51,256 bases of DNA from Komagataeibacter saccharivorans. GTDB taxonomy: Bacteria; Pseudomonadota; Alphaproteobacteria; Acetobacterales; Acetobacteraceae. The position numbers were made by a program, and so were the translations under genes. The notes under the pieces were generated by a model. It was given only the letters and a program-made list of their open reading frames with translations. It was not told where the DNA came from and did not search any database. The stretch is taken from positions 1 to 51,256 of the forward strand of contig NZ_NKTY01000023.1 of NCBI RefSeq assembly GCF_003207825.1. The letters are read 5' to 3'. Position 1 is the first letter of the stretch. Every line of letters starts with the position of its first letter. Below are positions 22,146 to 30,923 of the stretch, piece by piece.

Positions 22146-22730
22146 TCAGGTAAACCAGACGGAAAGCGTGCGCACGCCCTGTGCGCCACGGATCAGCACG
22201 CCCTGAATATCCGCCGTGGCGGACGGGCCGCTCATCAGCACGCCATAATTGGCGGACCGGAATTCCGGCTGCTTCTGATACGCAGTATGCATGTTGGCCG
22301 TAATCGCATCGGCTGACAGCACCACCACGATATGCTGCCCCAGATGGGCAAAGGAATTGATCGGAAGCTGGGCTTCGCTCAGGAAGATCGATCCCATTTC
22401 CGCAATGCCGAAGGCTGCGCGCACCACGGTCACGTCTATCGTCGCGGCATCCTGCGGGGTCTTGATCCGCTCGACCGGCAGCGTCCCCCTGGCCTCCGGC
22501 ACGTTGGAACAGATCACCTTCGCATCCGGGTGGCGGCGCAGGATGGCTTCGTCCAGCGTTTCACCCTCCACCGGTTCCAGTACGTCACCGCCCAGTATCT
22601 TCAGGCTGGTGATGAAACGCTCGCGGCTGGCATCTAGGTCGCCCAGTGTCGCAACGGGCGGCAGGGGATGGTTTTCCGGCGTGGGGCGATTGTTCCGCAG
22701 GGCCTGCAGGATTTCATCGCGTGCGCTCAT
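22146..22730 (-). CDS. lutC: Lactate utilisation protein C
   Basis: A 194-aa LutC/YkgG family protein (DUF162 fold). Recognisable features are the N-terminal SARDEILQALRNN, the central VRAAFGIAEMGSIFL, the block HLGQHIVVVLS, and the C-terminal ATADIQGVLIRGAQGVRTLSV. LutABC together oxidise L-lactate to pyruvate, with electrons passed through iron-sulfur clusters. LutC is the last gene, its start overlapping the lutB stop by 4 bp. It is cytoplasmic and has no cofactor motif of its own. Confidence 0.95.
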   Translation of the reverse strand: MSARDEILQALRNNRPTPENHPLPPVATLGDLDASRERFITSLKILGGDVLEPVEGETLDEAILRRHPDAKVICSNVPEARGTLPVERIKTPQDAATIDVTVVRAAFGIAEMGSIFLSEAQLPINSFAHLGQHIVVVLSADAITANMHTAYQKQPEFRSANYGVLMSGPSATADIQGVLIRGAQGVRTLSVWFT

Positions 22731-24136
22731 TTTGCGGTCTCCGCTGCGTCAGTCTGGCCGGGTGCGCGGTTTTTCTTGTACCAGTCATGGAAGGTCTGCT
22801 TGACCGGATGGGGGTTTTCGCGGTGCTTGCCCCACGGGTTCAGCCAGTTATACAGCACGAAGCGCGGCATGCTGGCCAGCGAGACCTCGGTCATCTTGAT
22901 GGCGGCGCGATACATCTTGGGCTGCCCCATGAGCTTGCCCGCCATGTGCATGATCTCGCGCTTGACGAAGGGCATTTCATGGTGCTGCACCAGCACGCGA
23001 CGCCATTTGTAAAGCTGTTCGTGGATGTTGATCTTGACCGGGCAGACATTGGTGCAGCTTCCGTTCAGCGTCGAGGCATAGGGAAGCGTGCTGTATTTGC
23101 GCTCGTTGAAGGTGGGATCGATGATCGCGCCGATCGGGCCGGAATAGACCGCGCCATAGGACAGCCCGCCAGACCGGCGGTAAACCGGACAGGTATTCAT
23201 GCACGCGCCACAGCGGATGCATTTGAGCGATGTCCAGAAATCTTCCATGCCAAGGCGGGCGGAACGGCCATTATCCACCAGCACCACATGCATCTCGCCG
23301 CCCTTCTGCGGGCCACGGAAATGGGTGGTGTACTGTGTGATGGGCGATCCCAGCGCACTGCGTGACAGCAGGCGGATGAAAATGCCCAGATCGGCCATGC
23401 GCGGCACAAGGCGTTCGATGCCGATGGTGGCGATATGCAGGTTGGGCACTGTCGCACTCAGGTCGGCATTGCCTTCATTGGTGCAGACAACGAACGTGCC
23501 GGTTTCCGCCACCACGAAATTGCCGCCCGTCATGCCTGCATCGGCGTGCAGGATCACCGGCCGCGCGGCCTGACGCTGCGCTTCGGCCAGCAGGTGCGGG
23601 TCACGGATATCGGGATCGGTGTGGTAGTCCTTGGCGAATATCTTCGCCACGTCCGATGTCAGCTTGTGAACGGCCGGGACCACGATATGGCTGGGCAACT
23701 GGTCATCAAGCTGCTGGATGCGTTCGCCCAGATCCGTTTCGGTCACGGTAACGCCCTGTTTTGCAAGATAGGGCCGCATGTCACACTCCTCGGTGACCAT
23801 GGACTTGCTCTTGATCAGGTTGCGCGCGTTATGGGCCTTGAGGATTTCACCCACGATGCGGTTATGTTCCGCCCCGTCGCGCGCCCAGTGGACGTGGATG
23901 CCGTTCTTCTTCGCGTTTTCCTCGAACTGTTCAAGATATTCGGGCAGGCGCGAGAGCGTGTGTTCCTTGATGCGCGATGCCTCCTCGCGCAGTTCCTGCC
24001 ATTCCGGCAGGATGTGCATCTGCGCGTCACGCTTCTGGCGCATGTCCCACAGGCGTTCGTCATGGAACTGGAGATGGGGCGCATCTTCCAGAAAATGCGC
24101 GGCGGCCTTTGCGTGATTGACCGGTCTGTTGCTCAT
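22727..24136 (-). CDS. lutB: Iron-sulfur lactate oxidation protein B
   Basis: A 469-aa protein of the LutB/YkgF type. The N-terminal two thirds are the LutB/DUF162-like domain (WARDGAEHNRIVGEIL ... KSKSMVTEECDMRPYL). The C-terminal third is ferredoxin-like, with CIRCGACMNTCPVYRR (~305-320) and CTNVCPVKINIHEQL (~362-376), giving two [4Fe-4S] clusters. It passes electrons from lactate within the LutABC complex. Overlaps of 4 bp with lutA upstream and lutC downstream show a tightly coupled operon. Confidence 0.96.
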   Translation of the reverse strand: MSNRPVNHAKAAAHFLEDAPHLQFHDERLWDMRQKRDAQMHILPEWQELREEASRIKEHTLSRLPEYLEQFEENAKKNGIHVHWARDGAEHNRIVGEILKAHNARNLIKSKSMVTEECDMRPYLAKQGVTVTETDLGERIQQLDDQLPSHIVVPAVHKLTSDVAKIFAKDYHTDPDIRDPHLLAEAQRQAARPVILHADAGMTGGNFVVAETGTFVVCTNEGNADLSATVPNLHIATIGIERLVPRMADLGIFIRLLSRSALGSPITQYTTHFRGPQKGGEMHVVLVDNGRSARLGMEDFWTSLKCIRCGACMNTCPVYRRSGGLSYGAVYSGPIGAIIDPTFNERKYSTLPYASTLNGSCTNVCPVKINIHEQLYKWRRVLVQHHEMPFVKREIMHMAGKLMGQPKMYRAAIKMTEVSLASMPRFVLYNWLNPWGKHRENPHPVKQTFHDWYKKNRAPGQTDAAETAK

Positions 24137-24876
24137 TCTGCTGCTCCGTTAAGGATCTGCGCGATATGAATGAAGCGGATGGGAACGCCCGCGCGTTCGG
24201 CACAGCCCTGCTGGTGCATCGTGCACGACGAATCGGCGGAGACGATGTATTCCGCCCCGGCCTGATGATGGTCGCGTACCTTGTCCACGCCCATGCGGGC
24301 GGACACGGCTTCTTCCGTAACCGAGAAGGTGCCGCCGAAGCCGCAGCATTCATCAGGCCGTTTCGGGGTAACGAAGCGGATGCCCCGGACTTTTTTCAGC
24401 AGGTCCATCGGCTTTGAGAACGGCTTTTCCCCCAGTTCGGACATGCTGGCGGTGCGCAGGGCGCGCAGCGTGCCGCAACTGTTATGCAGTCCGACGGTGT
24501 GATTGAACTCCGCCCATGGGAAGGCGTCCACCTTCAGCACGTCATGCAGGAATTCCACCAGTTCGAAGGTGTTTTCACGCACATGGCGGACTTCGTCGGT
24601 CTGGGGAATCGCATCGAAATTGTCGCGCACATGATGTGTGCAGCTTCCCGAAGGCATGACGATCTTGTCGAAGCGCGCGAAGTTGCGCACGAACAGCGCT
24701 TCCGCCGCCGCAGCGTCCGAATTGCAGCCTGAATTGCCCATCGGCTGGCCACAGCAGGTCTGGTCCAGCGGATATTCAACATCCAGCCCCAGTTTCTCCA
24801 GCAGTTCCAGCGTGGCGATTCCCGCCTCGGGGTAGAACGCGTCGATATAACATGGAATGAACAGGCCAATCTTCAT
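24133..24876 (-). CDS. lutA: Iron-sulfur lactate oxidation protein A
   Basis: A 247-aa protein started at the ATG at 24876 (MKIGLFIPCYIDAF); an upstream in-frame start is less likely. It carries two cysteine-rich CCG domains, CCGQPMGNSGC (~40-50) and CCGFGGTFSV (~177-186), as in heterodisulfide-reductase and glycolate-oxidase iron-sulfur subunits. It is the first gene of lutABC, transcribed divergently from the LysR gene, which is the obvious candidate regulator. Lactate use fits the metabolism of acetic acid bacteria. Confidence 0.95.
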   Translation of the reverse strand: MKIGLFIPCYIDAFYPEAGIATLELLEKLGLDVEYPLDQTCCGQPMGNSGCNSDAAAAEALFVRNFARFDKIVMPSGSCTHHVRDNFDAIPQTDEVRHVRENTFELVEFLHDVLKVDAFPWAEFNHTVGLHNSCGTLRALRTASMSELGEKPFSKPMDLLKKVRGIRFVTPKRPDECCGFGGTFSVTEEAVSARMGVDKVRDHHQAGAEYIVSADSSCTMHQQGCAERAGVPIRFIHIAQILNGAAE

Positions 24877-24958
24877 TACGGGATACTCATCCTCAGCACG
24901 ATTGGCGCGAAACGTGGCGCATGGCATGTTATTTCGTCAAATATATATTGAAGGCCCT

Positions 24959-24982: not shown

Positions 24983-25927
24983 ATGGATTTAAGGCATTTA
25001 CGATATTTCGTGGCAGTTGCCGAGAACGGCAGTTTCACCCGTGCGGCGGAACAGCTTGGCATAGAACAGCCGCCATTGAGCCAGCAGATCAAGCAGCTTG
25101 AAAATGAACTGGGCGTACTTCTGTTCCAGCGCCTGACGCGCGGGGTCCGGCTGACGGATATCGGGCTTGTCCTTCTGGATCAGGCCCGTGCGCTGCTGGG
25201 GATGCAGCGGCAGTTCCTGTCCACCGCGCGCGGACTGGCACGGGGCGAGAAGGGGCATATCCGCGTGGGGCTGGCGGGCGCGGTCTCCCTGCTGCCGCTG
25301 ATCCCGCTGACCGTGCGCCGCTTTTGCGAAGTGTGGCCCGATGTCACCATCTACCTTGAGGAAAGCAATACCCCGGCCCTGCGCAAGGCGCTGCATGACC
25401 GGGCCATTGATATCGCAATCGTCCGCCCGCCAGTGCCTGATGGGGCGGGGCTGCTGGTTTCCCCCCTGCTGGAGGAGGAAACGGTGGTCGCCCTGCCCAA
25501 GGGCCATCCGCTTGCCATCCATCCGAATCTGGAACTGGAGATGCTGGCCGATGAACCCTTCATCATCTTCCCGCGTGAACTGGGGCCGGGCTTTCATGAT
25601 GCGATCCTGTCAGCCTGTCACAATGCAGGTTTTACGCCGCGCATGGGCCAGCAGGCCCCGCAGATCGCATCGACCGTGCCGCTTGTGGCCGCAGGACTGG
25701 GGGTATCGGTCGTGCCGCGTTCGCTGCACCAGATCCATTCGGGCGGCGTGACCTATCATTCACTGGGGGCGAAAGCGCCGCGTGCGGAACTGGCCATAGC
25801 CATGCGCGCGGGCCAGCATGTGCCGCTTATGACGAACTTCATCGCCACCCTGCGCGCCTGCTGTCAGGACATGAACGACAGCGCCATTTCCATAGCCCCC
25901 GCCAGCCCGGACATGGAAGGGGCGTAG
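24983..25927 (+). CDS. LysR family transcriptional regulator
   Basis: A 314-aa LysR-type regulator. The winged helix-turn-helix covers residues 1-60 (LRHLRYFVAVAENGSFTRAAE, then QPPLSQQIKQLENELGVLLF). The rest is the periplasmic-binding-protein-like effector domain (IRVGLAGAVSLLPLIPL ... DIAIVRPPVPDGAGLL ... VVALPKGHPLA). It is divergent from lutABC with 106 bp between the starts. It therefore probably controls lactate utilisation in response to lactate or a related acid; the effector is inference. It resembles the BenM/CatM/HcaR-like subgroup. Its end lies 9 bp from the convergent zinc peptidase gene. Confidence 0.95.
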   Translation: MDLRHLRYFVAVAENGSFTRAAEQLGIEQPPLSQQIKQLENELGVLLFQRLTRGVRLTDIGLVLLDQARALLGMQRQFLSTARGLARGEKGHIRVGLAGAVSLLPLIPLTVRRFCEVWPDVTIYLEESNTPALRKALHDRAIDIAIVRPPVPDGAGLLVSPLLEEETVVALPKGHPLAIHPNLELEMLADEPFIIFPRELGPGFHDAILSACHNAGFTPRMGQQAPQIASTVPLVAAGLGVSVVPRSLHQIHSGGVTYHSLGAKAPRAELAIAMRAGQHVPLMTNFIATLRACCQDMNDSAISIAPASPDMEGA

Positions 25928-25936
25928 CGTCCTCGC

Positions 25937-26998
25937 TCAGCCCACGCGGCTGTGATGGATCAGGTCGTGGATGAAGGACAGCTTGCGCAGGATTTCGGGT
26001 GTCAGCACGAACGGATAGAAATCCGGCAGGCCCATGGAGCGGTTGAGGCTGTTGGCGGCATAGGTAAGGGGCAGCCAGCCTTCCGTAATCTCCGTAAACG
26101 ACATTTCGGTATACGGGTCCTTGCGTACGGTGGCGCGCAGCGGCGGGGCAGTGGCCCCCGGCGCGTCAATGGACATGCCATAAGCCCAGGCGGTTTCCAG
26201 CGTCGAGATGATATGCAGGTAATGCGCCCATGTTTCCGCAAAATCCTCCCATGGGTGGGATGTTGCGTACTGGCTGACATACCGCCCCTGCCAGGTATTG
26301 CCGGAAGGGGTTTCGTAGTGTTTTTTCAGCGCCTGTGCGTAATCGGCGCGGTCGTCGCCAAATACGTCCCGGCAGGCGGCAAGGCGTTCGGGGCCGCCGT
26401 CGCGTACCAGCACATTCCAGTAATAATGTCCCACCTCGTGACGGAAATGGCCCAGAAGGGTGCGGTAATATTCCCCCATTTCCAGCCGCATCCGTTCACG
26501 CTGGGCATCGTCAGCCTCATTCAGCGCGATTGTGATAACGCCATTCATGTGCCCGGTCATGGCGGGCGAGCCATCGGGCAGGCTGTCCAGAAAATCGAAG
26601 GCAAGGCCGCCTTCGGGGTCCTCGCGCCGGTTGCGCAGCGGCAGGCCAAGGCGCAGCAGGGTATAGAACAGCCGGTGCTTGGCCACTTCCAGCTTCTGCC
26701 ACCGGGCGGTATTGCCCACCACCGACAGGTTGGGAATGGTGCGGTTGAAACTGCACGCGACGCAGAATGGCTTTCCCGGTTCGGCCAGCCAGTTGCATAC
26801 CCCGTAATCATTGTTGGCACACAGGGCGCGGGGCGTATCGGGGGCGACGATGGGGCGCCATAGCCCGTCGCCCGTGGCTTCCAGCGCACTGAGGGTGGTC
26901 CGTTCAGGCAGGTAGCCCAGTGTCAGGCCACAGCGTTCACATGCAGTATTTTCAAAAAACAGGACCTGCTGGCATGACTGACAGAAAAAAAGCTTCAT
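25937..26998 (-). CDS. Putative zinc-binding metallopeptidase (COG4307 / Peptidase_Mx type)
   Basis: A 353-aa protein started at the ATG at 26998, which overlaps the stop of the transglutaminase gene by 4 bp. The N-terminus is a zinc ribbon (C6, C9, C20, C23), followed by a second cysteine set (C60, C68, C79, C82). The metallopeptidase motif HEVGH is at 187-191 (FRHEVGHYYW), with a downstream DFAETWAHYLH that can supply a further ligand. There is no signal peptide, so it is cytoplasmic. The family has no established substrate. Coupling to a transglutaminase and closeness to the ATP-grasp and alpha-E genes suggests it cleaves or processes the product of that system; this is inference. Confidence 0.87.
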   Translation of the reverse strand: MKLFFCQSCQQVLFFENTACERCGLTLGYLPERTTLSALEATGDGLWRPIVAPDTPRALCANNDYGVCNWLAEPGKPFCVACSFNRTIPNLSVVGNTARWQKLEVAKHRLFYTLLRLGLPLRNRREDPEGGLAFDFLDSLPDGSPAMTGHMNGVITIALNEADDAQRERMRLEMGEYYRTLLGHFRHEVGHYYWNVLVRDGGPERLAACRDVFGDDRADYAQALKKHYETPSGNTWQGRYVSQYATSHPWEDFAETWAHYLHIISTLETAWAYGMSIDAPGATAPPLRATVRKDPYTEMSFTEITEGWLPLTYAANSLNRSMGLPDFYPFVLTPEILRKLSFIHDLIHHSRVG

Positions 26999-27912
26999 GA
27001 GGGGCGCGTCAGTCTTCGCGGGCTGGCATGGATTTCGCTCATGGCGGGCAGGGGCATGGTTTCCATCACGGCTTCGAATGTGGCGACGCACTGGTCCAGC
27101 AGCCCGCTTACGGGGGCGGCGTCCTGCGGGGTGACGGCGACGGCCAGCGGGACATGCCCCTGTGCGGCCAGCAGGCCCGATGTCGTATCCAGACCGATCC
27201 ATCCCGCACCCGGTATGTAAACCTGCGTCCATGCGTGAAGTTCGCAGCCCAGACGCTCCGGGGCGTCGCGTTCGGGCTGGAACAGGTAGCCTGATACGAA
27301 GCGCGCGGCAAAACCCAGGCGGCGCAGCACGGCAATCAGCAGCCAGGCGCTGTCGCGGCATGAACCGGCGGCGTTACGCAGGGTTTCCTCCGGCGACCAG
27401 ACACCGGCTTCAAGCCGGATACAGTAGGTGATGCGCGCCGCGATCGCCCGTGTCAGGCCGGTCAGCAGGTCCAGCGTGGGACAGGGCAGGGTCGCGCGCC
27501 ATTCCCGTGTCAGGGCATCCAGCAGGGGTGTGGGCGTGGCCTCCGTCGCTTTGTGCGGTGCCAGCAGGTACGCGCCCAGCGCGGGATCAGCATTCATGCC
27601 GTTGGCCGACCACAGCCGGGCATGCGGCGCGATGGTGAAGGTAAACGGGTCGGTGGGTGTCTGGTCCGTGGTCAGGCGGACGGTTACGTCAAAATGCGTG
27701 ACCCGTTCGCCAAAAACGACGCGGGCGATGCGGTTGCCGCAGGCGTCATTGCTCCATGTGCGCGTGTGGGCCGCAGGGGCGATGTCCAGCGCGTGCGACA
27801 GCACGTTGCGGGTGCCGGGCAGCGGGTGCAGGCGGATCGTTTGCGGACCAAGGTGGACAGGCCGGTCGTATCGGTATCGCGTGTGGTGGACCAGCATGGC
27901 ATGCGCGTTCAT
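26995..27912 (-). CDS. Transglutaminase-like cysteine protease family protein (COG1305)
   Basis: A 305-aa protein started at the ATG at 27912 (a second ATG five codons in is possible). The N-terminal ~150 residues are the bacterial transglutaminase beta domain (HHTRYRYDRPVHLGPQTIRLHP). The catalytic triad is C185 (GSCRDSAWLL), H226 (CELHAWTQVY) and D242 (GLDTTSG). No signal peptide is seen. Such proteins hydrolyse or transfer amide bonds. It is the first gene of a two-gene minus-strand unit with the zinc peptidase. It faces the ATP-grasp gene across a 289-bp promoter region, a neighbourhood repeated in many bacteria. Confidence 0.93.
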   Translation of the reverse strand: MNAHAMLVHHTRYRYDRPVHLGPQTIRLHPLPGTRNVLSHALDIAPAAHTRTWSNDACGNRIARVVFGERVTHFDVTVRLTTDQTPTDPFTFTIAPHARLWSANGMNADPALGAYLLAPHKATEATPTPLLDALTREWRATLPCPTLDLLTGLTRAIAARITYCIRLEAGVWSPEETLRNAAGSCRDSAWLLIAVLRRLGFAARFVSGYLFQPERDAPERLGCELHAWTQVYIPGAGWIGLDTTSGLLAAQGHVPLAVAVTPQDAAPVSGLLDQCVATFEAVMETMPLPAMSEIHASPRRLTRPS

Positions 27913-27952
27913 GTACTCACTCTCAGCCCCGGAAAACTCTCCCGCATGCCGG

Positions 27953-27972
27953 CCATCGTGATCCGGCGATGG
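27953..27972. promoter_or_regulatory. Inverted repeat in the divergent region of the ATP-grasp / transglutaminase cassette
   Basis: CCATCG and CGATGG (27953-27958, 27967-27972) with an 8-nt spacer, 41 bp upstream of the transglutaminase start. It is a possible operator shared by the two divergent units. No regulator gene is adjacent. Confidence 0.3.
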
Positions 27973-28142
27973 TAACGGTCTGGACGCGGTTATGGATGCC
28001 CCGCCCACGCTATCAGGATTGGCGTTTGCAGCAATATCGTATTTTTCAGGCATTTGGGCGCGAATGGAAGAAGAATGCAGATTCGTTCTTGGCAAGAGAC
28101 GATTTTCTTGCTCCGCTAGGTTGGGATCGAAACTGAAACGAC

Positions 28143-28196
28143 AGGTGGGTGGACATGATTCCTTCGCGCCTGATCCACCTCCATCCCAGCGGAGGT
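28143..28196 (+). promoter_or_regulatory. Two-state leader candidate over the ATP-grasp ribosome binding site
   Basis: The Shine-Dalgarno GGAGGT (28191-28196), 5 nt before the ATG at 28202, is complementary to ACCTCC at 28177-28182 (8-nt loop), giving a perfect 6-bp sequestering stem. The overlapping CCACCT (28175-28180) is equally complementary to AGGTGG at 28143-28148. The two pairings are mutually exclusive, as in translational attenuators. The pairings are directly visible; switching is inference. Confidence 0.4.
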
Positions 28197-28201
28197 AGGG
28201 C

Positions 28202-29668
28202 ATGCATGATATGAAAATGGCGGCGCAGGCAGCGGGTCTGTTCGCGACATACGACATTCCGGATTTTTTTTGTGAACTGCTCAACCGTGGGGATACGCCC
28301 CCTCCCGGCCTGCAGATGGTGCGCGACAGGCTGGCCCGCTTTGACCTGACGGAACTCCGCCGTCGCGCGGCCGCGGTAGAGGCGCAGTTCTACCGTCTGG
28401 GCATCACCTTTACCGTCTATTCCGACCGCGAGGCCATCGACCGCGTCCTGCCGTTCGATGTCATTCCCCGCGTGCTGACGGCGGCGGAATGGGATCATGT
28501 CGAACGCGGCGTGCAGCAGCGCGTCCGGGCGATCAACCTGTTCCTGCATGACATCTATCACGACCGGCATATCCTGCGCGATGGCGTGGTTCCCGCCGAT
28601 CTGGTGCTGGGCAATCCCAATTACTGTCAGGCCATGGTCGGGCTGGATGTGCCCGGCGGGGTTTACGTGCATATCAATGGCACCGATCTCGTGCGGGACC
28701 GTGATGGCCGTTTTCTGGTGCTTGAAGATAACGCCCGCACGCCATCGGGCGTATCGTACGTGCTGGAAGACCGGCAGATGATGCTGCGTCTCATGCCCGA
28801 TCTGGCAACCGGGCTCAATATCCGCCCGGTCGATGAATATGGCCCCCGGCTGCATCGCGCACTGGTGGAAGTCGCCCCCGCCGGTGTCACGGAACCGCAG
28901 GTCGTCCTGCTTTCCCCCGGCATCTATAACGCCGCGTATTTCGAACACGTATTCCTTGCCCGCGAAATGGGTATTCCGCTGGTCGAAGGCCGCGACCTGA
29001 TGGTGGAGGACGGATACGTATACATGCGCACCGTCGCCGGGCCGCGCCCGGTCCATTCCATCTATCGCAGGCTCAACGATGATTTTCTGGACCCGCTGGT
29101 CTTCAACCCCGACAGCCTTCTGGGCGTGCCCGGTCTGGTTGACGCCTACCGGCGCGGGAACGTGACGCTGGCCAACGCGATTGGCACCGGCGTTGCCGAT
29201 GACAAGGCGGTATATGCCTACATGCCGCGCATCATCCGCTACTATCTGGATGAGGAACCGATCCTGACCAATGTGGAAACCCATATCTGCGCCGAACGCG
29301 CGGGGCTGGAATACACGCTGGCCAATCTGGAACAGCTTGTGGTCAAGCCGGTGGGGGAATCAGGCGGTTACGGCCTGCTGATCGGCCCGCATGCGTCACA
29401 GGCCGAACTGGCCGAGTTCCGTGACCGGCTGCGTGCCAATCCGGCCAATTACATAAGCCAGCCGGTTATCAGCCTGTCGGTATCCCCCACCCTGTGCCCC
29501 GCAGGCGTGGAAGCGCGGCATGTCGATCTGCGGCCATTCGCCGTGACGGGGGAAAGCACATGGGTCCTGCCCGGTGGCCTGTCCCGCGTGGCGCTGCGCA
29601 AGGGATCGCTGGTGGTCAATTCCTCGCAGGGTGGTGGATCAAAGGATACGTGGGTGCTGGCATCATGA
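28202..29668 (+). CDS. Circularly permuted ATP-grasp protein (COG2308 type)
   Basis: A 488-aa protein that shows the circularly permuted ATP-grasp pattern: RRRAAAVEAQFYRLGITFTV early, RVLTAAEWDHVERGVQQRV, DLVLGNPNYCQAM, then FLVLEDNARTPSGVSYVLE, a hallmark of this family, and near the end QLVVKPVGESGGYGLLIGP. ATP-grasp enzymes join a carboxylate to an amine or thiol via an acyl phosphate. This family is predicted to form a peptide or amide bond on an unknown substrate. The start has a strong but possibly sequestered ribosome binding site. The stop overlaps the alpha-E start by 4 bp. An ATG at 28211 is an alternative start. Confidence 0.93.
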   Translation: MHDMKMAAQAAGLFATYDIPDFFCELLNRGDTPPPGLQMVRDRLARFDLTELRRRAAAVEAQFYRLGITFTVYSDREAIDRVLPFDVIPRVLTAAEWDHVERGVQQRVRAINLFLHDIYHDRHILRDGVVPADLVLGNPNYCQAMVGLDVPGGVYVHINGTDLVRDRDGRFLVLEDNARTPSGVSYVLEDRQMMLRLMPDLATGLNIRPVDEYGPRLHRALVEVAPAGVTEPQVVLLSPGIYNAAYFEHVFLAREMGIPLVEGRDLMVEDGYVYMRTVAGPRPVHSIYRRLNDDFLDPLVFNPDSLLGVPGLVDAYRRGNVTLANAIGTGVADDKAVYAYMPRIIRYYLDEEPILTNVETHICAERAGLEYTLANLEQLVVKPVGESGGYGLLIGPHASQAELAEFRDRLRANPANYISQPVISLSVSPTLCPAGVEARHVDLRPFAVTGESTWVLPGGLSRVALRKGSLVVNSSQGGGSKDTWVLAS

Positions 29669-30699
29669 CACAGGTTTCTGCCTTTACCGCCCCGGCCCTG
29701 CCGGGGCTGCGCAACCTGCTTTCGCGTTACGGCGAAAACATGATGTGGCTGGCGCGCTATATGGAGCGCATCGAGAACATGGCCCGCCTGATCGATGTGA
29801 CGGGTTCGTCCGTGCAGGGCAGCAACAGGGACGCGGGATGGGACAGTGTCATCCGCATCAACGCGGATGAGGCGTTTTTCTTCCATCACCACAAGGCCGC
29901 GACCGAGCAGGCCGTGGTCGCCTTTTATATTACCGAGAGCGAGAACCCCGATTCAATCAAGTCCATGGCCCGCTGCGCGCGTGAAAACGCCCGTGTGCTG
30001 CGGCCCCTGATCTCGACCGAGATGTGGATGCACCTGAATGTCTTTACCCGTTGGGTCGTCGATCTGGGGCCGGAGGATGTGGGAGCCAGTTACCTGTCCG
30101 CCCTGTGCACGCGGCTGAAACAGGACTGCCAGACGCATTTCGGCATTACGGAGGGGACGCTGTACCGCGATCAGGCGTGGCAGTTCTACAGTCTTGGCAA
30201 GAACCTTGAACGTGCGGACCAGATTACGCGGCTGATCGACATCAAATACCATACCCTGCTGCCCAGTGGGGCCGGGGTGGGGTCGGATATCGATATGAGC
30301 CAGTGGACATCCGTGCTGCGGTCGGCTGCCGCCTACCACGCATTCCGCCGCGTGCTGCCCGATGGCATGACACCGGCCAATATCGTGGGCTTTCTGCTCA
30401 AGAACGATGGCTTCCCGCGTTCTCTGTCCACCAGCCTGCGCAATGTATACAGCGCGCTGGGCATACTGGCGGGCGAATACCGGCTGCGCCAGTGTGGCCC
30501 GATCCTTGAACGGGTGGAAGAACTGCGGGTGACGCTGGTGGAGCAGACGGTGGAAGACATCATCCTGCGTGGGCTGCATGAATACATGGACTGGATACAG
30601 CGCGAGCTGCGGCAGTTGCAGAACGAGATCGCGCAGGCCTTCTGGCCCCCGGTCGTATCGGTGGCCCCCATGGGCGGCATGGAGCAGATGCAGGACTGA
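29665..30699 (+). CDS. Alpha-E domain protein (COG2307 / DUF403)
   Basis: A 344-aa protein started at the ATG at 29665, overlapping the ATP-grasp stop. It is nearly all helical. Family blocks are LLSRYGENMMWLARYMERIENMARLIDV at the N-terminus, SMARCARENARVLRP, WQFYSLGKNLERADQITRLID and RGLHEYMDWIQRELRQLQNEI at the C-terminus. Alpha-E proteins nearly always accompany the permuted ATP-grasp protein and are thought to work with it, but no biochemical activity is established. Cytoplasmic, no signal peptide. A short inverted repeat (GCCCATCG / CGATGGGC, 30707-30738) follows the stop. Confidence 0.94.
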   Translation: MTQVSAFTAPALPGLRNLLSRYGENMMWLARYMERIENMARLIDVTGSSVQGSNRDAGWDSVIRINADEAFFFHHHKAATEQAVVAFYITESENPDSIKSMARCARENARVLRPLISTEMWMHLNVFTRWVVDLGPEDVGASYLSALCTRLKQDCQTHFGITEGTLYRDQAWQFYSLGKNLERADQITRLIDIKYHTLLPSGAGVGSDIDMSQWTSVLRSAAAYHAFRRVLPDGMTPANIVGFLLKNDGFPRSLSTSLRNVYSALGILAGEYRLRQCGPILERVEELRVTLVEQTVEDIILRGLHEYMDWIQRELRQLQNEIAQAFWPPVVSVAPMGGMEQMQD

Positions 30700-30800
30700 A
30701 AACGTGGCCCATCGTCATGCCGATGTATGGCGATGGGCATGCGGTTCCGCACCCGGATGGGCGGGTGCAGGGAACAGATAGCGATTTCAGGAAAAATGGC

Positions 30801-30875
30801 TGGCTGGGGCGGGAGGGTTCGAACCTCCGCATGGCGGAATCAAAATCCGCTGCCTTACCACTTGGCTACGCCCCA
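30801..30875 (-). tRNA. tRNA-Gln (anticodon TTG)
   Basis: Read from 30875 on the minus strand: acceptor TGGGGCG, D-arm TAGCCAAGTGGTAAGGCA, anticodon arm with TTTTGAT giving anticodon TTG, T-arm GGTTCGAACCC, and encoded CCA at 30801-30803. The first base T is typical of bacterial tRNA-Gln. It decodes CAA (and CAG by wobble). It stands alone between the alpha-E gene and the COQ9-type gene. Confidence 0.96.
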
Positions 30876-30923
30876 ACATGCAGCAAACCGCGCGATTCGC
30901 GTGATTGGTGTTCTTCTAATGTC

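Follow-up and report, generated by a model that had tools for sequence, protein, structure and literature searches.

What does a compact set of four genes in Komagataeibacter saccharivorans do, and do these genes form a single system? The question is raised by a locus at positions 25937-30699 (4.8 kb) of the 51,256-nucleotide stretch of DNA analyzed here, the whole of which is called the window. Two divergent gene pairs make up the locus, a zinc peptidase with a transglutaminase-fold cysteine enzyme on one strand and a circularly permuted (CP) ATP-grasp enzyme with an Alpha-E protein on the other. The original prediction took them for a complete and undescribed system that makes and cuts an amide bond, with the peptidase as an extra module. 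We found that the four genes recur together and that the peptidase family, PF15887, tracks Alpha-E across phyla with near-total co-occurrence. Tentatively, and with slightly less than even confidence, we read the cassette as a reduced form of a widespread bacterial CP-ATP-grasp/Alpha-E system for cytoplasmic amide ligation and hydrolysis.

Gene neighborhoods were mapped around 152 peptidase loci, comprising the window locus (1), loci from samples of 192 class genomes (13) and 150 family genomes (58), and loci from named genomes (80), with flanks of up to 8 kb for the class and family loci and up to 10 kb for the named loci, many contigs being shorter. The named loci are the best 80 of 589 confirmed matches and therefore lean to close relatives; the nearest named relative among them is Komagataeibacter europaeus, with a peptidase 84% identical. 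Another part of the system was present in the flank of 60 of the 152 loci (the window, three class loci, 28 of the 58 family loci and 28 of the 80 named loci). The linked genes included DUF2126 in 41 of these 60, and a transglutaminase, with or without DUF2126, lay directly upstream on the same strand in 24, while three (L254, L284 and L295) depend on a transglutaminase or distant match alone. Linkage extended to the Gammaproteobacteria (L295 from Luteimonas, transglutaminase only) and the Bacteroidota (L301 from Hymenobacter and L322 from Chitinophagales). The same divergent layout, with ATP-grasp and Alpha-E facing away from transglutaminase and peptidase, was found in nine more loci (L134, L135, L142, L164, L165, L167, L168, L248 and L252), so that all four genes are kept in ten loci. 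The predicted association of the four genes and the recurrence of the peptidase link were thus borne out.

Across genomes, Alpha-E accompanied the peptidase almost without exception. Alpha-E was present in 75 of the 192 class genomes overall, in 14 of the 14 with a full-length peptidase (which represent 11 family codes) as against 61 of the 178 others (Fisher 8.6e-7), and in the family sample in 55 of 57 as against 64 of 93 (Fisher 1.9e-5), p-values that overstate independence because the comparison genomes were phylogenetically unmatched. The two family genomes with a peptidase and without Alpha-E, G317 and G334, have completeness values of 85% and 66%. For these tests, class genomes whose match was weak or partial (G064, G078, G100, G139, G184 and G188) and family genomes with a broken copy (G212, G213 and G257) were counted as lacking the peptidase. 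Alpha-E was likewise found in 41 of 41 named genomes with an unlinked peptidase, from Proteobacteria, Bacteroidota and Verrucomicrobia, although in G364 by weaker or partial matches only; these 41 come from the 52 unlinked named loci (all except L263, L267, L269, L270, L272, L273, L275, L277, L278, L280 and L283), and the Fisher comparison covers the class and family samples. The peptidase therefore follows Alpha-E at close to one to one, a tighter match than that of transglutaminase, DUF2126 or Anbu, which is difficult to reconcile with its description as an extra module. No alternative partner for the unlinked peptidases emerged from a scan of their recurrent neighbors, which were confined to Bradyrhizobium or to a few Acetobacteraceae and Methylobacteriaceae genera; of six neighbor representatives scanned, three had a Pfam family (biotin carboxylase, ion transporter and PEP-mutase) and three had none.

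A neighborhood survey had been proposed in the expectation that the peptidase stands in for Anbu, the protein found with the same ligase families elsewhere. Anbu was sought with a profile built from 12 operon members in which T1, D17 and K32, its candidate catalytic residues (PMC6376114), are invariant. Of the class genomes 58 of 192 gave a match, and of the family genomes 25 of 150; among those with the peptidase the counts were 11 of 14 (class) and 16 of 57 (family), the matches in G023, G305 and G310 being weak or partial. The association between peptidase and Anbu was positive (Fisher 1.5e-4 for the class and 0.006 for the family), and since the two are present together in many genomes, they are not alternatives within one genome, and replacement as a genome-wide rule was rejected. 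At the level of the locus a single case fits: L121, the sole operon seen with the peptidase in the usual place of Anbu, and because its ATP-grasp and transglutaminase lie in the Anbu clades, a separate recruitment is indicated. The genome that holds it, G140, has three versions of the system, namely ATP-grasp-Alpha-E-transglutaminase-peptidase (L121), ATP-grasp-Alpha-E-Anbu (L240) and a DUF2126 cluster (L247). Anbu itself was found within 1 of the 152 peptidase loci (L292, Paracoccus chinensis), where two tandem copies of a peptidase-ATP-grasp-Alpha-E set precede an Anbu gene of opposite orientation. The window's genome (G000) gave no match to the Anbu profile.

The gene coordinates and frames, the ATGA overlap within each pair (peptidase/transglutaminase on the minus strand, ATP-grasp/Alpha-E on the plus strand), the 289-bp gap and the catalytic residues all held up in open reading frame (ORF), Pfam and alignment checks. 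The peptidase matched PF15887 (Peptidase_Mx) over the full profile (1-236/236; 353 bits against a cut-off of 27, E value 9.3e-106) and the zinc ribbon PF10005 (E value 3.7e-25), and its activity is predicted from the motif: H187, E188 and H191 of HEVGH are invariant among 43 aligned peptidases, as are the first Cys set (C6, C9, C20 and C23) and C68, and C60, C79 and C82 are nearly so; one distant relative, L123, lacks the first set. An AlphaFold2 model (predicted local distance difference test score, pLDDT, 93) gave structural matches of the zincin type. The transglutaminase has the triad C185/H226/D242; among 133 aligned domains, 130 keep the Cys, 132 the His and all 133 the Asp. The ATP-grasp enzyme matched PF14403 over its full profile (1-374/374; 539.9 bits against a cut-off of 32, E value 4e-162), was also assigned PF04174, and has PDB 3n6x_A as its nearest solved structure (E value 1.3e-168). 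The Alpha-E protein, the only one in its genome, matched PF04168 over its full length (264.2 bits, E value 2.6e-78), keeps an ER pair found in 113 (E182) and 112 (R183) of 114 domains, and was modeled as all-helical (pLDDT 85). Neither of the outcomes that had been named as damaging to the prediction, a want of conserved co-occurrence or a loss of catalytic residues in relatives, was observed. Purifying selection acts on all four genes: the ratio of nonsynonymous to synonymous substitution (dN/dS), measured against the same-genus genomes L167 and L168 and K. europaeus (L248), was 0.06-0.07 for ATP-grasp, 0.10-0.15 for Alpha-E, 0.13-0.16 for the peptidase and 0.23-0.33 for the transglutaminase. 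A Kyte-Doolittle scan found no hydrophobic segment in any of the four proteins (highest 19-residue mean, 1.33), in agreement with the predicted lack of signal peptides, and the proteins are probably cytoplasmic, as judged from hydropathy and not from a signal-peptide predictor.

The likely descent of the cassette is suggested by larger relatives. In L132 and L133, six-gene loci, Alpha-E and ATP-grasp diverge from a transglutaminase-DUF2126 fusion, a peptidase, a fused ATP-grasp-Alpha-E and a small transglutaminase; in a third six-gene relative, L158, the gene order differs. In an ATP-grasp tree of 55 rows, the ten four-gene loci together with the locus of genome G213 form one clade (support 100/99), sister (99/93) to L132/L133 (100/95), and all of these lie in a clade of 42 (100/100) in whose loci Anbu was not seen. 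The window's ATP-grasp falls outside the Anbu-associated clade (split 100/99); the six Anbu-operon rows named as outgroup do not form one side of a branch, two further rows falling among them. The transglutaminases are compatible with this picture, though more weakly. Their active-site motif is SCR in 10/10 proteins of the window type and 42/42 DUF2126 fusions; V and Q occupy the flanking positions in Anbu-operon (24/26 and 25/26) and small transglutaminases (43/43 and 43/43), mostly as VCQ. With one Bacteroidota fusion as the root of the transglutaminase tree, proteins of the window type formed one clade (100/100) inside the Acetobacteraceae fusions, and a quick tree grouped it with the transglutaminase part of the DUF2126 fusions (99). 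All eight family genomes with the four-gene set have no DUF2126, one Alpha-E and no Anbu, and G000 gave no match to DUF2126 (PF09899). Five further family genomes with the peptidase and without DUF2126 (G216, G228, G230, G238 and G269) have only ATP-grasp and Alpha-E at the fetched Alpha-E locus, transglutaminases elsewhere not having been sought, and the steadiest pair is therefore ATP-grasp with Alpha-E. From linkage, conservation, the tracking of Alpha-E by the peptidase and the sister relation of the ATP-grasps, we infer losses in this lineage: of the amidoligase part, DUF2126, from its fusion with transglutaminase, and of the second, fused ATP-grasp-Alpha-E together with the small transglutaminase that accompanies it. 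The direction (loss and not gain of DUF2126) rests mainly on the ATP-grasp tree. With such relatives, and with DUF2126, a second Alpha-E and Anbu absent from 8/8 four-gene family genomes, the word "complete" for this make-and-cut system is doubtful.

Nor is the system wholly undescribed, since an operon of ATP-grasp, Alpha-E, transglutaminase and Anbu is already in print (PMC6376114 and PMC5666114, both citing Iyer 2009). That operon has the first three families in common with the cassette; it differs in that the window's genome has no Anbu and an ATP-grasp from an Anbu-less clade, and in that the cassette is divergent instead of colinear and includes the zinc peptidase. The DUF2126 clusters (L132 and L133, and others often with PF15887) resemble it in the layout around the peptidase, the sister ATP-grasp and the SCR motif, but the window's genome lacks DUF2126 and the fused ATP-grasp-Alpha-E. 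Genes I35_5080-83 of Burkholderia cenocepacia encode DUF404/407, DUF403 and two transglutaminase-like proteins, although with a large transglutaminase-like protein and no PF15887 named in the text available (PMC5491218), and the window's gap lacks a sigma-54-like site. The rlo operon of Pseudomonas aeruginosa is similar in outline, with ATP-grasp, transglutaminase-fold and peptidase proteins in one pathway, but its own features are a RimK-like ATP-grasp, an inactive membrane transglutaminase, a secreted aspartic peptidase and, as far as the available text goes, no Alpha-E (PMC12239564). Among zincins, the M34/PPEP type and 4l7a, a putative zinc-binding metallopeptidase, share only 14-16% identity with the window peptidase (three rows), which adds a zinc ribbon and has no secretion signal that we could see; a common fold would not imply a common function. 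No link between PF15887 or COG4307 and the Alpha-E system was found in the literature searched, in the text available, although Iyer 2009 may mention one, and the same literature names no product of the system. As far as this search reaches, two points are new: the near-obligate link between PF15887 and Alpha-E, and a four-gene cassette that probably arose through loss.

In the reduced system that we propose, each chemical step in this organism is one that we infer. The ATP-grasp enzyme would turn a carboxylate into an activated acyl phosphate, then join it to an amine, and a related ATP-grasp is known to liberate phosphate from ATP (PMC6376114). Alpha-E would serve as its partner, holding the enzyme or the substrate; the transglutaminase-fold cysteine enzyme may act on the product as an amidase or acyl-transferase; and the zinc-ribbon metallopeptidase may trim or remove the product, or cut its carrier. 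Several results weigh against this reading. The peptidase is unlinked in the available flank of 92 of the 152 loci, and the transglutaminase evolves fastest of the four. In the quick transglutaminase tree with distant outgroups, all fusions formed one clade (100) with the window type apart, and in the careful tree holding the window type together with the Acetobacteraceae fusions raised the log-likelihood by 1.06 (approximately unbiased test, p 0.559), with long branches, so that the transglutaminases by themselves do not decide between loss and gain. The four-gene-clade locus of G213 (L187) looks decayed, and in Acetobacter persici (L249) ATP-grasp, Alpha-E and transglutaminase are each split into two ORFs by decay or draft errors. 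The operon partners of Anbu did not bind it specifically when co-expressed in the Yersinia bercovieri system (PMC6376114). Finally, no match to the sigma-54 site TGGCAC-N5-TTGCW was found in the gap (27913-28201) even with up to three mismatches. As a separate observation, G213 retains only a stop-containing fragment of the peptidase and has a strongly diverged second transglutaminase match.

The unlinked loci could mean that the peptidase is an unrelated chance neighbor of the transglutaminase. This is scarcely tenable and already contradicted, as 28/58 family and 28/80 named loci are linked against about 1% expected (our own estimate, from 1-2 system loci per 4 Mb), and co-occurrence with Alpha-E is near total. 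The fast transglutaminase and the apparently decayed loci G213 and L249 might instead mark a remnant, functionless since the loss of DUF2126 and the fused ligase, but dN/dS of 0.06-0.33, intact active sites and the retention of all four genes in ten loci make this very unlikely. Two further alternatives concern the product. In the first, proteins are the targets: the ligase would attach a peptide or an amino acid to them as a tag, and the peptidase (in other systems Anbu) would either strip it off or break down the tagged proteins, mainly in nitrogen starvation. Tagging was proposed for the Anbu operon by Iyer 2009, as quoted in PMC6376114 and PMC5666114, and is consistent with expression in nitrogen starvation (PMC8050072, PMC5491218), with the presence of two unrelated hydrolases, PF15887 and Anbu, beside the same ligases, and with a zinc ribbon that could bind protein. 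We consider it a serious but unlikely candidate, since no tag or tagged protein is known, the coexistence of peptidase and Anbu at different loci of one genome makes simple equivalents unlikely, and no peptidase activity was detected for the Anbu of Y. bercovieri (PMC6376114).

A small-molecule conjugate appears rather improbable as the product. Glutathionylspermidine synthetase/amidase combines a ligase and a cysteine amidase in one unit, and the pairing in the cassette recalls it: the ATP-grasp enzyme would build a conjugate from a carboxylate and an amine or polyamine, to be released by the cysteine enzyme and the metallopeptidase under nitrogen shortage. The ATP-grasp's closest structure, 3n6x, was deposited as a putative glutathionylspermidine synthase, and the nitrogen link (PMC8050072, PMC5491218) would suit this proposal too. 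That deposited name is itself a prediction, however, and a zinc ribbon on an endopeptidase-like fold exceeds the needs of a small conjugate.

For the reduced CP-ATP-grasp/Alpha-E system as for these alternatives, the nitrogen connection comes from other bacteria. In an ntrC mutant of B. cenocepacia, I35_5080-83 were down 6- to 9-fold (PMC5491218), Anbu and ATP-grasp genes of Pseudomonas putida were up on nitrate versus ammonium (log2 4.4 and 4.0; PMC8050072), and marine metagenomes show an association of these domains with domains of urea metabolism (PMC3597751). A role in nitrogen shortage would apply to the cassette by analogy, because its gap shows no sigma-54-like site; sigma-54-like matches across the window were also at chance level (252 versus 271 expected), and the idea of a sigma-54 site in the gap was rejected. 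The divergent 289-bp gap fits the predicted sharing of one promoter region by the two pairs, but this designation rests on geometry because promoter-like matches in 25800-30900 were at chance level (1 found, 1.7 expected). A genus-conserved dyad in the gap, GGCAAGA-N8-TCTTGC, was rejected as an operator or regulon motif, its sites being fewer in its own genome than in the reversed control (39/44 versus 50/58); judging by the two flanks read, the five near-identical copies found elsewhere are part of a different repeat. The 21-base word GGCGAGAAATGATTTTCTTGT occurs exactly at five places in G000 (C15:82702, C17:22, C33:52282, C77:5726 and C107:69809); the two copies whose flanks were read have matching flanks and are each no more than about 25 bases from the end of a contig, as expected for the end of a mobile element. 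No conserved small ORF or graspetide-like precursor was seen in the gap, the region searched, where a four-genome alignment shows indels not divisible by three.

Table 1 Features of the four-gene cassette, with positions in the window
Feature	Position	Strand	Size and basis
Zinc metallopeptidase of the COG4307 type (PF15887); zinc ribbon PF10005 at the N terminus	25937..26998	-	353 amino acids; Pfam, alignment, AlphaFold2
HEVGH motif of the peptidase, residues 187-191	26426..26440	-	Alignment of 43 peptidases
Transglutaminase-fold cysteine enzyme (PF08379 + PF01841)	26995..27912	-	305 amino acids; Pfam, alignment, trees
Divergent gap, 289 bp	27913..28201		Conserved blocks within genus; frame-breaking indels
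Circularly permuted type 2 ATP-grasp amide ligase (PF14403)	28202..29668	+	488 amino acids; Pfam, PDB 3n6x_A match, tree
Alpha-E helical protein (PF04168)	29665..30699	+	344 amino acids; Pfam, predicted model

Alpha-E is followed, about 100 bases past its stop codon, by a tRNA-Gln gene (anticodon TTG, 30801-30875) that is encoded on the minus strand, opposite to Alpha-E. The peptidase side is flanked by a LysR-like ORF (24983-25927, plus strand) and by two ORFs resembling lactate-utilization iron-sulfur proteins (24133-24927 and 22727-24136, both minus strand), all named by eye.

With less confidence than we attach to the cassette as a reduced system, we suggest it as a possibility that PF15887 serves the Alpha-E/ATP-grasp ligase across bacteria as its own peptidase for processing or deconjugation, a near-obligate second hydrolase beside Anbu, and that the cassette is a minimal self-sufficient form that has discarded two of three ligases and may both make and remove the amide. 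With one Alpha-E, one peptidase and a linked ligase and transglutaminase in 4.8 kb, and with neither Anbu nor DUF2126, the locus is a compact single-copy model and a clean setting for a gene-by-gene search for the product. Through its near-total dependence on Alpha-E, PF15887, an orphan peptidase family, acquires its first testable partner.

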